A stretch of DNA of 9,947 nt. Origin: Sulfurimonas sp. Its GTDB lineage: Bacteria > Campylobacterota > Campylobacteria > Campylobacterales > Sulfurimonadaceae. Below, one piece after another: positions 2,898-9,346 of this stretch. Location: assembly GCA_002733155.1 (NCBI GenBank), contig NVUO01000006.1, forward strand, positions 1,403 through 11,349, written 5' to 3'. Position 1 is the first letter of the stretch, and each line of letters starts with the position of its first letter. Made by a program: the position numbers and the translations under genes. Under the pieces are notes generated by a model, which was not told the origin of the DNA, ran no database searches, and saw only the letters and a list, made by a program, of their open reading frames with translations.

Positions 2898-3395
2898 TTA
2901 TTTTATAATAGTTTCTATCTCCATAGAATCCATCTCAACTTTTTTAGCTTTTGCAATTCTATCTTCTTTTAGTTTTATGCTTAATTCTTCATTTTCTAAT
3001 GCTAACATTTGCATAGCTAAATAAGCAGAGTTAATTGCTCCAGCCTTACCTATAGCTACAGTAGCAACTGGCATTCCAGCTGGCATTTGCACAGTTGAAA
3101 GTAAAGCATCTATACCATTTAATGCAGATGCTGACATTGGTACACCAATGATTGGTTTGATTGTTTTTGAAGATAATACACCAGCTAAGTGTGCAGCCAT
3201 ACCAGCTGCTGCAATAAATACCTGCGCACCTTTTTTCTCAGCTTCTTGAATATATTTAGCAGTTCTTTCAGGTGAGCGATGGGCTGAAGAAATAATCATC
3301 TCATAGTTAACACCAAAGGCTTCCAGCGTATCTGAACACGATTTCATTACCTCATAATCACTTTTTGAACCCATAACTATTGAAACAAATTTCAT
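2898..3395 (-). CDS. purE: N5-carboxyaminoimidazole ribonucleotide mutase (PurE, class I)
   Basis: PurE converts N5-CAIR to CAIR in de novo purine synthesis. At 165 residues it matches class I bacterial enzymes. Visible hallmarks: G-S-K-S-D (9-13) binding the phosphate, S-A-H-R-S-P (37-42) with the catalytic histidine H39, G-M-A-A-H-L-A-G-V (65-73), G-V-P-M (84-87), and D-A-L-L-S-T-V-Q-M-P-A-G-M-P-V-A-T-V-A-I-G (96-116). The ATG at 3395 is preceded by AGGA at 8 nt. The gene opens an apparent three-gene unit with the DUF3972-like and DUF89 genes; no purK is next to it. An extended -10 and a 16-bp palindrome lie upstream (separate entries). Confidence 0.98.
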   Translation of the reverse strand: MKFVSIVMGSKSDYEVMKSCSDTLEAFGVNYEMIISSAHRSPERTAKYIQEAEKKGAQVFIAAAGMAAHLAGVLSSKTIKPIIGVPMSASALNGIDALLSTVQMPAGMPVATVAIGKAGAINSAYLAMQMLALENEELSIKLKEDRIAKAKKVEMDSMEIETIIK

Positions 3396-3439: not shown

Positions 3440-3455
3440 ATGTATAATTATACAT
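3440..3455. promoter_or_regulatory. 16-bp perfect palindrome, candidate operator of purE
   Basis: ATGTATAATTATACAT is its own reverse complement over all 16 bases and lies 9 bp upstream of the purE -10, covering the normal -35 position. A dimeric repressor bound here would block RNA polymerase. It also contains TGTATAAT on both strands, so it could instead be a pair of opposed -10 elements. No regulator gene in the window is an obvious partner. Confidence 0.45.
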
Positions 3456-3470
3456 TTGTATTATCATGGC

Positions 3471-3489
3471 TATTTCATACAGTGAAATA
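3471..3489. repeat. Small inverted repeat beside the repeat cluster
   Basis: TATTTCA, a TACAG spacer, then TGAAATA form a 7-bp stem with a 5-nt loop, four bases before the first repeat copy. Its significance is unknown. With the adjoining repeats it may help end or stabilise transcripts coming from the SHOCT gene. Confidence 0.3.
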
Positions 3490-3492
3490 TAT

Positions 3493-3575
3493 CGTCATTC
3501 CAAACTTGATTTGGAATCTAATTACTAATATTTTAAGCTACATAAACTAGACCCTGAATCAAGTTCAGGGTGACG
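3493..3575. repeat. REP/MITE-like two-hairpin repeat, copy 1
   Basis: An 83-bp element bounded by CGTCA ... TGACG. The left arm (3493-3520) and right arm (3548-3575) are each a 28-nt hairpin with an 8-bp stem and 5-nt loop. The loops read CTTGA and TCAAG, which are complementary. The arms are inverted copies matching at 20 of 28 positions. A 27-bp AT-rich centre separates them. There is no coding capacity, so movement would need an enzyme supplied elsewhere. Related CGTCATTCC / CAGGGTGACG elements are widespread in bacterial genomes (from memory). The layout resembles paired REP hairpins (BIMEs). Confidence 0.8.
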
Positions 3576-3590
3576 GGGAATGTGAACCTA

Positions 3591-3627
3591 CGTCATTCCA
3601 AAAAATATCGTCATTCCAAAAAAATAT
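3591..3627. repeat. Two tandem truncated left ends of the repeat
   Basis: The left terminus CGTCATTCCAAAAA(A)ATAT occurs twice in tandem (3591-3608, 18 nt; 3609-3627, 19 nt) immediately before full copy 2. Each copy stops at the run of A within the stem, so neither can form the hairpin. Confidence 0.75.
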
Positions 3628-3709
3628 CGTCATTCCAAACTTGATTTGGAATCTAATTACTAATATTTTAAGCTACATAACTAGACCCTGAATCAAGTTC
3701 AGGATGACG
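3628..3709. repeat. REP/MITE-like two-hairpin repeat, copy 2
   Basis: A second full copy in the same orientation, 82 bp. It differs from copy 1 by one missing A in the centre (CATAACTAG against CATAAACTAG) and one G-to-A change in the right arm (CAGGATGACG), which breaks one stem pair. Near identity of the centres shows recent duplication or homogenisation. Confidence 0.8.
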
Positions 3710-3752
3710 GTCAATCAATTCAGGGTGACGGTCAATCAAGTTCAGGGTGATG
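3691..3752. repeat. Tandem right ends of the repeat, running into the SHOCT gene
   Basis: Three successive units of AATCAA(G)TTCAGGxTGAcG(GTC) at 3691-3712, 3713-3733 and 3734-3752 (22, 21 and 19 nt). The first is the right arm of copy 2; the last lies inside the 3' end of the SHOCT-domain gene and holds most of its final codons. Confidence 0.75.
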
Positions 3753-4109
3753 AAAAGAGTTGTATGAATCAGACGTATCTGTATTATACATACGTTTTTT
3801 AAGCATCCTAAATTCATCATCATTTATTGTGCCCGCATCTAACATATCTTGAAGCTCAGCTAACCTCATCTCTTTAGATTTATTTATTTCTTTTACTGCC
3901 TCTTTTTTTGCATCTATATTTTTTTGATTTTTCAAGGCATAATTAGCTGCATTTTTAGATGAAACCTTATATGATACTACTGACATAATAAGCCCAACTA
4001 GTACAAAAAGTGATGCCTCTACATATATATCACCAAGAGCCTCTTGTGGAATTTCTGCCTGCAGTGAACTATTTAAGACTACTAAAGAATAAAATATTTT
4101 TTTTATCAT
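3732..4109 (-). CDS. Small membrane protein with C-terminal SHOCT-like domain
   Basis: A 125-residue protein with an N-terminal hydrophobic, signal-like stretch (1-18), a membrane segment (about 32-48, E-A-S-L-F-V-L-V-G-L-I-M-S-V-V-S-Y), a Lys/Asn-rich cytoplasmic linker, and R-L-A-E-L-Q-D-M-L-D-A-G-T-I-N-D-D-E-F (82-100) followed by K-K-R-M-Y, which fits the SHOCT motif (short C-terminal domain thought to mediate oligomerisation). No enzymatic role is apparent. Its ATG overlaps the stop of the U32 gene as TAATG, and it has no clear ribosome site, so translation is probably coupled. The last residues H-H-P-E-L-D and the TGA stop come from a unit of the adjoining repeat, so the original C terminus has been replaced or extended. 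Confidence 0.72.
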   Translation of the reverse strand: MIKKIFYSLVVLNSSLQAEIPQEALGDIYVEASLFVLVGLIMSVVSYKVSSKNAANYALKNQKNIDAKKEAVKEINKSKEMRLAELQDMLDAGTINDDEFRMLKKRMYNTDTSDSYNSFHHPELD

Positions 4110-7605: not shown

Positions 7606-9234
7606 ATGAAACAAATTTTCTTATATTTTCTTTTATATTATTAGTATTTATTTCTTGCATCTTTATTTATGATAAGTATCCAGCACTTTATTCTAGCACT
7701 GACGAAAAAATAACTTCATTTTATTTAAAATTACATAAACCAGAGGCTGCTTCAAAACAAATAACTATAATTGATATAGAGGCAAAGACTATAAAAAGAT
7801 TAGGACAATAGCCTTTTTCTAGGGATAAGATGGCTTTAGTTGTACATACTTTAACTAAATCAGGTGCTGGTATCATAGGTTTTGATATAGTATTTGCAGA
7901 TGAGGATCGTTTATCTCCACATAAAATGGCAAAACTATTAAACCTAAGTGGTAATTATGTCAATAATGATGAAGTTTTTTCAAATTTATTACTTCAAACG
8001 CCAACTATCTTGGGTTATTATTTTGATATGGCTAAGTCAAACCAAGGTGCCAATCCTATAGATAAGGCTAAGATTTCTATTTATGGGTATAAAGGACTAG
8101 ATAACTTTAATAATGCCAAGGGACTTATAAATAATATAGATATTTTAAAAAACAATGCTTATTCAAGTGGTTTTTTTAATCTAACAGATATTCAAAATGC
8201 TATAGTTAATAAGGATCCATTACTTATAAAATATAAAAACAATTTATACCCATCTCTTGCATTTGAAATGCTTAGAATTGCTTCACAAAGTGAAACAATC
8301 AAGGTTCATAACTCTGAGTTAGGTGTAATAGCTTTAGAGTTAGATGCTCTAACTATTCCAACAGATTCTAGGGCACAAATAAAACTAAACTTTCGAGGCA
8401 AAAGTTTTAGTTTTAAATATATCTCTTTTTTAGATATATATACAAATAATTTTAATCCAAATGATATAAATGGAAAATTTATTCTAATTAGAACAAGCGA
8501 TATAGGATTAAGTGACAAGGTAGCAACTCTTTATGATCCAGAAATGCCTGGAGTTGAGATTCATGCTACAATTATTGACAACATTTTAAACAGTGATTTT
8601 TTCTTTACACCAATCAACGCTTATTCTTATTCAGTATTTCTTATATTTTTCTCTACTATTATTCTTTCTAATATACTTTACTTTTTATCACCACTATATT
8701 CATTTATAGCTTTTTTATTATCTCTAGCTATAGTATTGTATATAAACTATTATCTTATTTTTAATAAGCATATAATTATAAATTATTCAATAATACTACT
8801 ATCTTTGTTTATAACTACAGGTATATATTATTACAAAAAACAATGGAACTATAGACAAGTTTATAGGTGATGCCATCAGGGCATGCTGATTTAGCTGTAT
8901 CATCTGCAATAGAGCAAATCAAAAGGTTAAAAAAATTAAATATAAAATTAGAAAAAGAGTTTTCTATAAGCCTAGAAATTGGAATCGGAATAAATAGTGG
9001 TGAATGTATAGTTGGTGAAATGGGCAGTAGTGGAAGAAGTGATTATACTTTAATTGGTGATAATGTAAATCTTGCATCAAGGGTTGAGCAGCTTCTAAAA
9101 AATATAAAGCAAAAATAATCATCACAGAATTTACAAAAAACATGTTAAAGAAAAACTACGACATTAAAAAACTAGATACCATTAACGTAAAAGGCAAAGA
9201 GATAAAAAGTACTATTTATGAAGTAATTTGTTGA
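7606..9234 (+). pseudogene. Degraded CHASE2-domain class III adenylate/guanylate cyclase
   Basis: Joined across frames, the remains spell an N-terminal membrane helix, a CHASE2 sensor domain (to about 8600; G-A-G-I-I-G-F-D-I-V-F-A-D-E-D, Y-P-S-L-A-F-E-M-L-R, P-G-V-E-I-H-A), three membrane helices (about 8610-8835), and the back half of a class III cyclase domain (N-G-T-I-D-K-F-I-G-D-A-I at 8842-8877; E-I-G-I-G-I-N-S-G; G-S-S-G-R-S-D-Y-T-L-I-G-D-N-V-N-L-A-S-R). Lesions: (1) ATG at 7606 in the wrong frame, cured by one extra T in the T-runs at 7616-7629; (2) TAG at 7809-7811 where G-Q-W-P needs Trp; (3) deletion at about 8841 of the front of the catalytic domain, including the F-S-D-I-R-G-F-T metal site; (4) deletion with frame change at 8878-8881, between G-D-A-I and H-A-D-L-A-V; (5) one A lost in the run 9097-9102, after which K-Y-K-A-K-I-I-I-T-E continues to TGA at 9232. 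Not a functional cyclase. The longest open piece is 7830-8870. Confidence 0.93.
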
Positions 9235-9346
9235 TGAAAATTGAAACAAATATTAAAAAATGTTAGCTTGTCTACCAACAAAAGCATTAATTAATAATTT
9301 CCTCTGTATAATGACTTTCATATAAAGTTTTTTAAAGGAAATAAAA
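9235..9346 (+). promoter_or_regulatory. trxA upstream region with -10 at 9307-9312
   Basis: The 112-bp gap after the dead cyclase holds TATAAT at 9307-9312, immediately preceded by TG, and AAGGAAAT four bases before the trxA start codon. A TTAATTAA palindrome (9287-9294) lies near the -35 position. TrxA thus has its own promoter and does not depend on reading through the broken gene. Confidence 0.6.

Follow-up and report, generated by a model that had tools for sequence, protein, structure and literature searches.

The question raised by this locus is how a pair of inverted hairpins, identical in loop and flanks and different in stem, came to lie where it does in a Sulfurimonas genome, and how the stems have remained paired while their sequences changed. 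The window, that is, the whole analysed stretch of 9,947 nucleotides (contig C38, 1403-11349), belongs to an assembly of 2.29 Mb in 44 contigs that is 84% complete. When the right arm of the pair (3548-3575), reverse-complemented to CGTCACCCTGAACTTGATTCAGGGTCTA, is laid on the left arm (3493-3520), read directly as CGTCATTCCAAACTTGATTTGGAATCTA, 20 of the 28 positions are identical, including all of CGTCA, the loop CTTGA and the end TCTA. The eight differences, at positions 6, 7, 9, 10, 20, 21, 23 and 24, fall into the stem pairs 6-24, 7-23, 9-21 and 10-20, and all four pairs are compensated. Realigning the arms thus reproduces exactly what a first-pass annotation of the letters had described. 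Its further remark, that the two loops are complementary and might kiss, is correct as to complementarity and carries no significance, because the loops of inverted copies are always complementary. As single-stranded DNA, the 83-nt stretch is predicted to form two separate hairpins at -13.3 kcal/mol, and none of 200 shuffled sequences folds equally well. A sister copy (L131) gives the same two-hairpin fold; two carriers of the same type (L050, L211) and one of a second type (L051) fold as a single long hairpin, so separate hairpins are not general.

The compensated variation is found throughout the genome. A pattern allowing at most three mismatches, which partly presets the stem, detects 258 copies, compared with one in the reversed control. 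A scan for flanks and loop only, over 732,143 bases, recovers 104 copies with perfect anchors and none in the reversed control; 85 of these have all seven Watson-Crick pairs and 19 have six of the seven. For the covariation analysis, 64 distinct arms were taken from the 732 kb with anchors fixed at no more than one mismatch and the stem left free. In this set 498 of 512 stem cells (97.3%) are paired, compared with 82.7 +/- 0.8 in shuffles that keep the shared ancestry, and pairing falls to about half when the partner is shifted by one column. Changes on both sides of the commonest pair account for 115 of the 512 cells (38.8 +/- 9.1 in shuffles, with kinship not removed), one-sided changes for 15, every one of them to G-U, and 14 cells are unpaired. 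The covariation score, taken over copies that share ancestry, is 0.594, against 0.295 +/- 0.017 in shuffles and at most 0.213 with slid partners. Two of the five measures lie within the shuffle range, namely the number of pairs with any both-sided change (six, reached by 118 of 500 shuffles) and the number of further pair types (15, reached by 55 of 500). Three versions of pair 10-20 (A-U, G-C, C-G) and two of pair 12-18 (A-U, G-C) are present. Since the variation goes beyond two stem versions and is mostly compensated, neither of the outcomes named in the first-pass annotation as refuting it, i.e. uncompensated changes as frequent as compensated ones or two stem versions fixed everywhere, appears in the part read, with the caveat of shared ancestry. 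The arms are REP-type hairpins with compensated stem variation across this genome.

The family itself is a known one, the superfamily of CGTC-tagged REPs, so the likeness to REP elements that had been suggested for the pair holds, while the accompanying suggestion of mobilisation by a RAYT/TnpA-REP enzyme does not, as discussed below. According to the accessible text of Di Nocera, De Gregorio and Rocco (2013, PMC3733652), CGTC REPs have no dedicated transposase and occur in Sulfurovum, Rickettsia (RPE) and Neisseria (dRS3). The arms share with them the CGTC tag, the 8-bp stem, the 5-nt loop and a 3-nt unpaired tail, as well as alternative complementary stem residues, heterodimers, intragenic copies and RAYT genes unflanked by these REPs; stems of 8-9 bp and loops of 4-5 nt define the class, and the tail is CTA here, whereas CCA prevails there. 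Over 135 copies that are unique with their 12-nt flanks, the G, T and C of the tag are 97-100% conserved and the first C 80%, with T in 16%. An extreme intragenic case is a 712-aa MBOAT-family reading frame (L063:17475-19613, G000:C32), which runs unbroken through 28 REP head motifs and 15 full arms.

In their arrangement, the copies depart from the published description, in which head-to-head dimers predominate and tail-to-tail dimers are rare in the CGTC class, a tendency rather than a defining rule in the accessible text of PMC3733652. Among neighbours less than 250 bp apart in the 732 kb, 28 are head-to-head and 32 tail-to-tail, and all 37 pairs read in two relatives (G055, G070) are tail-to-tail. 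When arms are assigned to class C or T by the base at stem position 9, inverted neighbours within 250 bp nearly always belong to different classes, as in all 24 distinct head-to-head cases and 28 of the 29 distinct tail-to-tail ones. Among direct neighbours, classes differ in one of 22, and beyond 250 bp like and unlike neighbours are both present. Unlike partners also make up 36 of the 37 tail-to-tail pairs of G055 and G070, none of which has identical stems. Exceptions are two elements of another relative (L210, L211 in G064), whose same-class arms differ at positions 6 and 7. Heterodimers are predominant in two of four CGTC families, without obvious explanation in the accessible part of PMC3733652. 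Here, much of the unlike-partner pattern is due to common descent of the carriers; a bias against long perfect palindromes could plausibly also produce it.

What carries the pair is a larger unit. The hairpins lie inside a miniature inverted-repeat element of 313 bp (window 3465-3777), which has terminal repeats of 17 bp and a nearly perfect flanking repeat of 10 bp (Table 1) and was likely moved here by an ISAs1-family transposase acting in trans. The interval 3493-3575, correct for the pair, is only part of this element; a second copy of the pair, four truncated arms and both terminal repeats lie outside it.

Table 1. Parts of the miniature transposon around the hairpin pair (window positions).
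Feature	Position	Strand	Remark
Left target-site duplication TTTGTATTAT	3455-3464		9/10 identical to 3778-3787
Left terminal inverted repeat CATGGCTATTTCATACA	3465-3481	+	2 mismatches to consensus end
CGTC-type REP arm, class C, stem TTCCAAA/TTTGGAA, loop CTTGA	3493-3520	+
CGTC-type REP arm, class T, stem CCCTGAA/TTCAGGG, loop CTTGA	3548-3575	-
Truncated arm, tandem unit: head and 5' stem half, tail half missing	3591-3608	+
Second truncated arm, in tandem with 3591-3608	3609-3627	+
Class C arm, second copy, from 135-bp tandem duplication of the interior	3628-3655	+
Class T arm, second copy	3682-3709	-
Truncated class T arm, head half	3710-3730	-
Truncated class T arm, head half	3731-3752	-	Holds stop codon of neighbouring 125-aa ORF
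Right terminal inverted repeat TACGTCTGATTCATACA (reverse strand)	3761-3777	-	1 mismatch to consensus end
Right target-site duplication TCTGTATTAT	3778-3787		Partner of 3455-3464

The ends were recognised from a motif, GGCTATTTCATACA, that lies in the window outside the two arms together with its near reverse complement, and such motif pairs flank REP pairs at many places. End-like sites number 57 in the genome and 10 in the reversed control. A script found 18 composites, of which 17 were kept, the one dropped being an alternative pairing of the same element; measured from core to core with both cores included, they span 88-307 bp, and 14 fall within 113-193 bp. Flanks were compared with offsets from 0 to 7 and words of 8 to 12 bases, and the best of these 40 combinations, a 10-base word lying 3 bases outside the motif, gives 115 of 170 flank matches over the 17 elements, compared with 60.9 +/- 6.7 after permutation and a permuted maximum of 95 in 20,000. 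Other high-scoring combinations differ from this one only in where the borders of the alignment are set. This gives YANGGCTGATTCATACA as the consensus end and 10 bp as the length of the duplication. Flanks match at eight or more of the ten positions in eight of the 17 elements and at fewer in nine, three of which stand at 3/10 and one at 2/10; in L120, where two elements are adjacent (3/10 and 2/10), the outer flanks match each other by eye.

Sister copies are found beyond this genome as well. In G064, ends around REP hairpins match the consensus end at 16 of 17 positions, and three copies can be read on both sides. By eye, two of them are flanked by exact repeats of 10 bp, GATTTTTAGG and GAAAGTTAAT (L211, L212), and the third (L210) has no flanking repeat. 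One of them, L212, contains a single fused hairpin and no pair. Being short and free of genes, with inverted terminal repeats and a target-site duplication of fixed length, the window copy bears the marks of a DDE-type miniature transposon.

A close parallel is QMITE2 of Coxiella burnetii (PMC5896051), in which a REP lies within a miniature transposon that has terminal repeats and direct repeats of 7-11 nt, and whose short copies devoid of ends resemble plain REPs. The QMITE2 REP is of the GTAG class, and no mobilising family is named in the accessible text, whereas the present element holds a CGTC hetero-pair, has an ISAs1-type end and is joined by a second carrier. REPs within longer palindromes have been described in Anabaena variabilis, Thermomicrobium roseum (GTAG) and Halothiobacillus neapolitanus (CGTC), termed target palindromes where they are named, and in the accessible text no transposase is given for CGTC REPs (PMC3733652). 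Relative to that description, the pair inside terminal repeats, the 10-bp target duplication and the ISAs1-matching end are all distinctive. The REP class is known, and the pair inside a miniature transposon with 17-bp ends and a 10-bp target duplication is new. No title on CGTC REPs inside an ISAs1 miniature transposon was found in a literature search whose coverage leaves out most subscription papers, and the search, reaching sources in part, returned no later answer to the spread of CGTC REPs after the 2013 paper (PMC3733652). RepRanger 2025 (PMC12306157) has Sulfurimonas gotlandica in a table, with the words MITE and transposase absent from its accessible text; that of PMC9208149 contains nothing on the combination. 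The 2013 paper, as far as its text is accessible, left the spread of CGTC REPs open (PMC3733652). The question becomes testable with an element whose ends and target duplication are defined and for which the genus has a matching transposase family. The element also splits one puzzle into two, the carriage of hairpin pairs by a transposon of known type and the spread of bare hairpins.

The link to ISAs1 comes from a search of 119 relatives with the consensus 17-mer, allowing two mismatches (0-2 matches per genome in the reversed control). Among the matches listed, three ends outside this genome have no mismatch, one in G064 and two in G051, and all three precede an ISAs1-like reading frame, that of G064 being cut by a contig end. 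Apart from the G051 contig, a scan of named genomes located the exact end in L253 (Sulfurimonas SAG AH-194-C20) and ends with 1 to 3 mismatches in L252 and L254 (both Sulfurimonas) and L255 (Helicobacteraceae). The G051 gene is split by a frame break; its pieces match NF033564 (5.7e-50 and 4.7e-24), and the first piece also matches PF13808 (1.4e-22). The consensus 17-mer is hence identical in G051, G064 and L253, where the assignment to ISAs1 by models refers to the G051 pieces only and no intact gene with the consensus end was confirmed. Since this end starts an ISAs1-family insertion sequence in relatives of the same genus, an ISAs1 transposase is likely to have moved the window element in trans; only the ends are shared, as the element itself has no transposase gene.

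PF13808 matches occur in 11 of the 119 genomes, and this genome, 84% complete, has none, so the source enzyme is not seen here and can only be deduced; probably, it was present in the past or lies in the unassembled part. The G051 insertion sequence, with its gene split and partly repeated, has no target duplication. At the relatives' ends, no duplication is clear in G051 or L252, and L254 has one of 8/10 by eye. A second ISAs1 group, in G011, has a different end and 9-bp duplications in five of the seven copies read. In G118, a match resembling ISAs1 is bordered left and right by GGCTGATTCAT motifs; it was set aside because it lies too near one motif for a whole gene.

Taken as a mechanism, the ISAs1 transposase would have bound the 17-bp ends, excised the element and joined it to a target cut with a 10-bp stagger. 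The two CGTC-type hairpins would then be a passenger module within the element, each arm folding on itself. Changes in the stem may survive chiefly in compensated form, whether through the usefulness of the hairpin or through recopying of a broken stem from the partner strand, and the interior may have grown by the 135-bp tandem duplication and by multiplication of the arms' head halves.

The element is situated between purE (2898-3395, -) and an ORF of 125 aa (3732-4109, -) that has a SHOCT match below threshold. In relatives such as G006, G055, G025 and G032, no more than about 30 bp separates the purE segment from the U32-peptidase segment, or the two slightly overlap; other relatives have longer gaps. 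Compared at least with the former, the window has gained both the small ORF and the element. The last codons of the 125-aa ORF (about TSDSYNSFHHPELD) and its stop are supplied by the element, and the insertion therefore likely rewrote the end of the protein. Elsewhere in the window, the plus-strand region 7620-9235 contains two abutting ORFs (7830-8870 and 8867-9118) that by eye resemble a broken sensor-cyclase-type gene.

REP pairs in this genus occur in more than one carrier. Tail-to-tail pairs lie between ends of a second type, ATTGAACYCTCTGATTAATT, in this genome (L048:255, L051:17108, L074:718) and in G037, G039, G055 and G070; the pairs of G055 and G070 lie between ends TTGANNNCTCTGATTAATTNATAAAC wherever the ends are recognisable. 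The three copies in the part read of the window's genome are identical over about 120 bp and are missed by the 26-mer pattern. Ends of the TTGANNNCTCTGATTAATTNATAAAC type occur in 15 of 119 genomes; G037 has the most, at 73 places, and the reversed control never exceeds one match in any genome. They are found in 10 of 14 REP-rich and one of 57 other genus genomes (p = 2e-8), an association that follows in part from the presence of REPs inside the carrier itself. At the purE site, which holds the first carrier in the window's genome, G070 (L167) has a tail-to-tail REP pair and one recognisable second-carrier end. Around the second carrier, only a TAA before TTGA is conserved (34 rows from a loose motif, some probably false pairings), so any duplication is at most a TA dinucleotide. 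One pattern search found no autonomous form of the second carrier. In another G070 locus (L166, C9), a REP pair is flanked by a different palindromic repeat (GTTCCCACGCAGAGCATGGGAAC).

The majority of the REP clusters read show no carrier. Of 65 clusters in the 732 kb, eight have ISAs1-type ends, three lie in the second carrier, 11 are near a RAYT-type repeat (ten of these on three contigs that repeat one block) and 43 have none of these. Arms lie near an ISAs1-type end in 18 of 148 cases, compared with 4 of 148 random places. With ISAs1-type ends at only eight of 65 clusters, the element accounts for the window copy and its sisters and not for the whole REP population. Bare clusters may be decayed carriers, as argued for QMITE2 in the accessible text of PMC5896051, or may have been moved by something else.

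These figures leave room for the reading that the REP pair is itself mobile through some enzyme as yet unseen, and that it entered a miniature transposon once and was amplified with it. The 43 clusters with no recognised carrier would fit, as would the occurrence of REP pairs in two carriers with different ends and opposite arrangement. Across the 42 bare clusters with usable flanks no shared duplication is found (best 0.390, for 8-mers; the maxima of 30 shuffles average 0.385). Against it, no associated enzyme appears in the accessible text of the 2013 paper (PMC3733652) or was found here, and bare copies could be carriers with decayed ends, as proposed for QMITE2 (PMC5896051, accessible part). 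Independent mobility of the pair is thus possible but rather doubtful. A broader generalisation, likewise rather doubtful and offered tentatively, is that CGTC REPs, which cross phyla, spread as hairpin cores of miniature DDE transposons, that at least two unrelated Sulfurimonas end types (ISAs1-type and ATTGA..CTCTGATTAATT) adopted the module in opposite arrangements, and that bare REPs are the remains of carriers whose ends have decayed.

There are 30 head-bearing tandem arrays, comprising 21 distinct half-arm arrays (head and 5' stem, cut around the loop) and others that are full-arm, pair or overlapping listings. No arrays of tail halves alone were seen; the two tail-bearing arrays that escape the head pattern both consist of full arms in which the head is altered. 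Of unpaired head halves, 89 were counted and 22 in the reversed control, and for 12 of the 89 a partner of some kind lies within 34 nt; of unpaired tail halves, 113 were counted and 156 in the control. As far as these data go, it is only ever the tail side that is lost and the head side that multiplies. Hairpin slippage would be the simplest mechanism for the half-arm arrays, and any mechanism is constrained by the unlike stems of inverted neighbours together with these one-sided truncated arrays. Such arrays are found in the window (3591-3627 and 3710-3752) and at L041:12232-12367, L066:1727-1858, L162 and L163.

For the compensated changes in particular, a selection-free origin can be considered, in which each arises in one step through hairpin-templated correction during replication. 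The excess of both-sided over one-sided changed cells (115 to 15) is in line with this, and arms truncated around the loop point to template events at the hairpin. Against it, intermediate one-sided pairs do occur, in the 15 cells that are all G-U, and as judged from standing copies this origin appears unlikely.

Alternatively, the hairpins might be kept as RNA elements, such as terminators or message stabilisers, with the compensation reflecting RNA function. The 15 G-U cells among the changes could be read in this way too, the element lies between two minus-strand genes, and one arm is terminator-like on the minus strand (1 found, 0.2 expected). An Rfam search of the window gave no match, however, and many copies lie within coding sequence, including the reading frame with 28 head motifs. 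An RNA role is quite improbable as the reason for their maintenance.

Movement as single-stranded hairpins by a RAYT, an HUH tyrosine transposase, was the reading proposed in the first-pass annotation. REPINs and BIMEs (GTAG, RAYT-associated) do share with the pair the general plan of paired inverted hairpins with fixed loop and flanks, of two types in some families, but their GTAG tag and RAYT link are both missing here, where the head is CGTC and the tail TCTA. The genome has six Y1_Tnp matches. Two of these were checked as RAYT-like and score 62.4 and 62.6 bits with the NCBIfam RAYT model, below its cut-off of 80; a copy on C4 is identical to one of the two, and a copy on C9 has the same Y1_Tnp score. 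The annotation had proposed searching for a RAYT/Y1 gene with the same arms on both sides, and the RAYT-type genes read (C4, C32) lie instead between copies of a AGTGCCTGACACC-type repeat, with one single CGTC arm about 390 bp from a RAYT-type gene. HUH elements are not known to make target duplications, and duplications are present here. Across 71 relatives, some of them incomplete, Y1 genes show no association with REP abundance; a match is present in 6 of 14 REP-rich genomes (at least 15 copies) and in 25 of 57 REP-poor ones (Fisher p = 1.0). At E 1e-3, eight of the 14 REP-rich relatives have no Y1 match, including G055 (100% complete, 115 copies), although three of the eight (G035, G058 and G071) are only 68-81% complete. 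Despite the RAYT-type repeat near 11 of the 65 clusters, RAYT as the mobiliser was rejected on its gene flanks and its presence pattern across relatives, and is very improbable as the source of the pair.

The RAYT-type genes sit amid many copies of AAAACAGTGCCTGACACCTTTTTT, a separate repeat family (L063:8200-12000, L057:5250-7240). At L059:4635-6020, one of the six Y1_Tnp matches falls in a 461-aa ORF with a Y1-like N-terminus; by eye, this ORF has no HUH motif, and its C-terminal part is SapC-like. Open frames of 462-477 aa with a Y1 match are present in several relatives.
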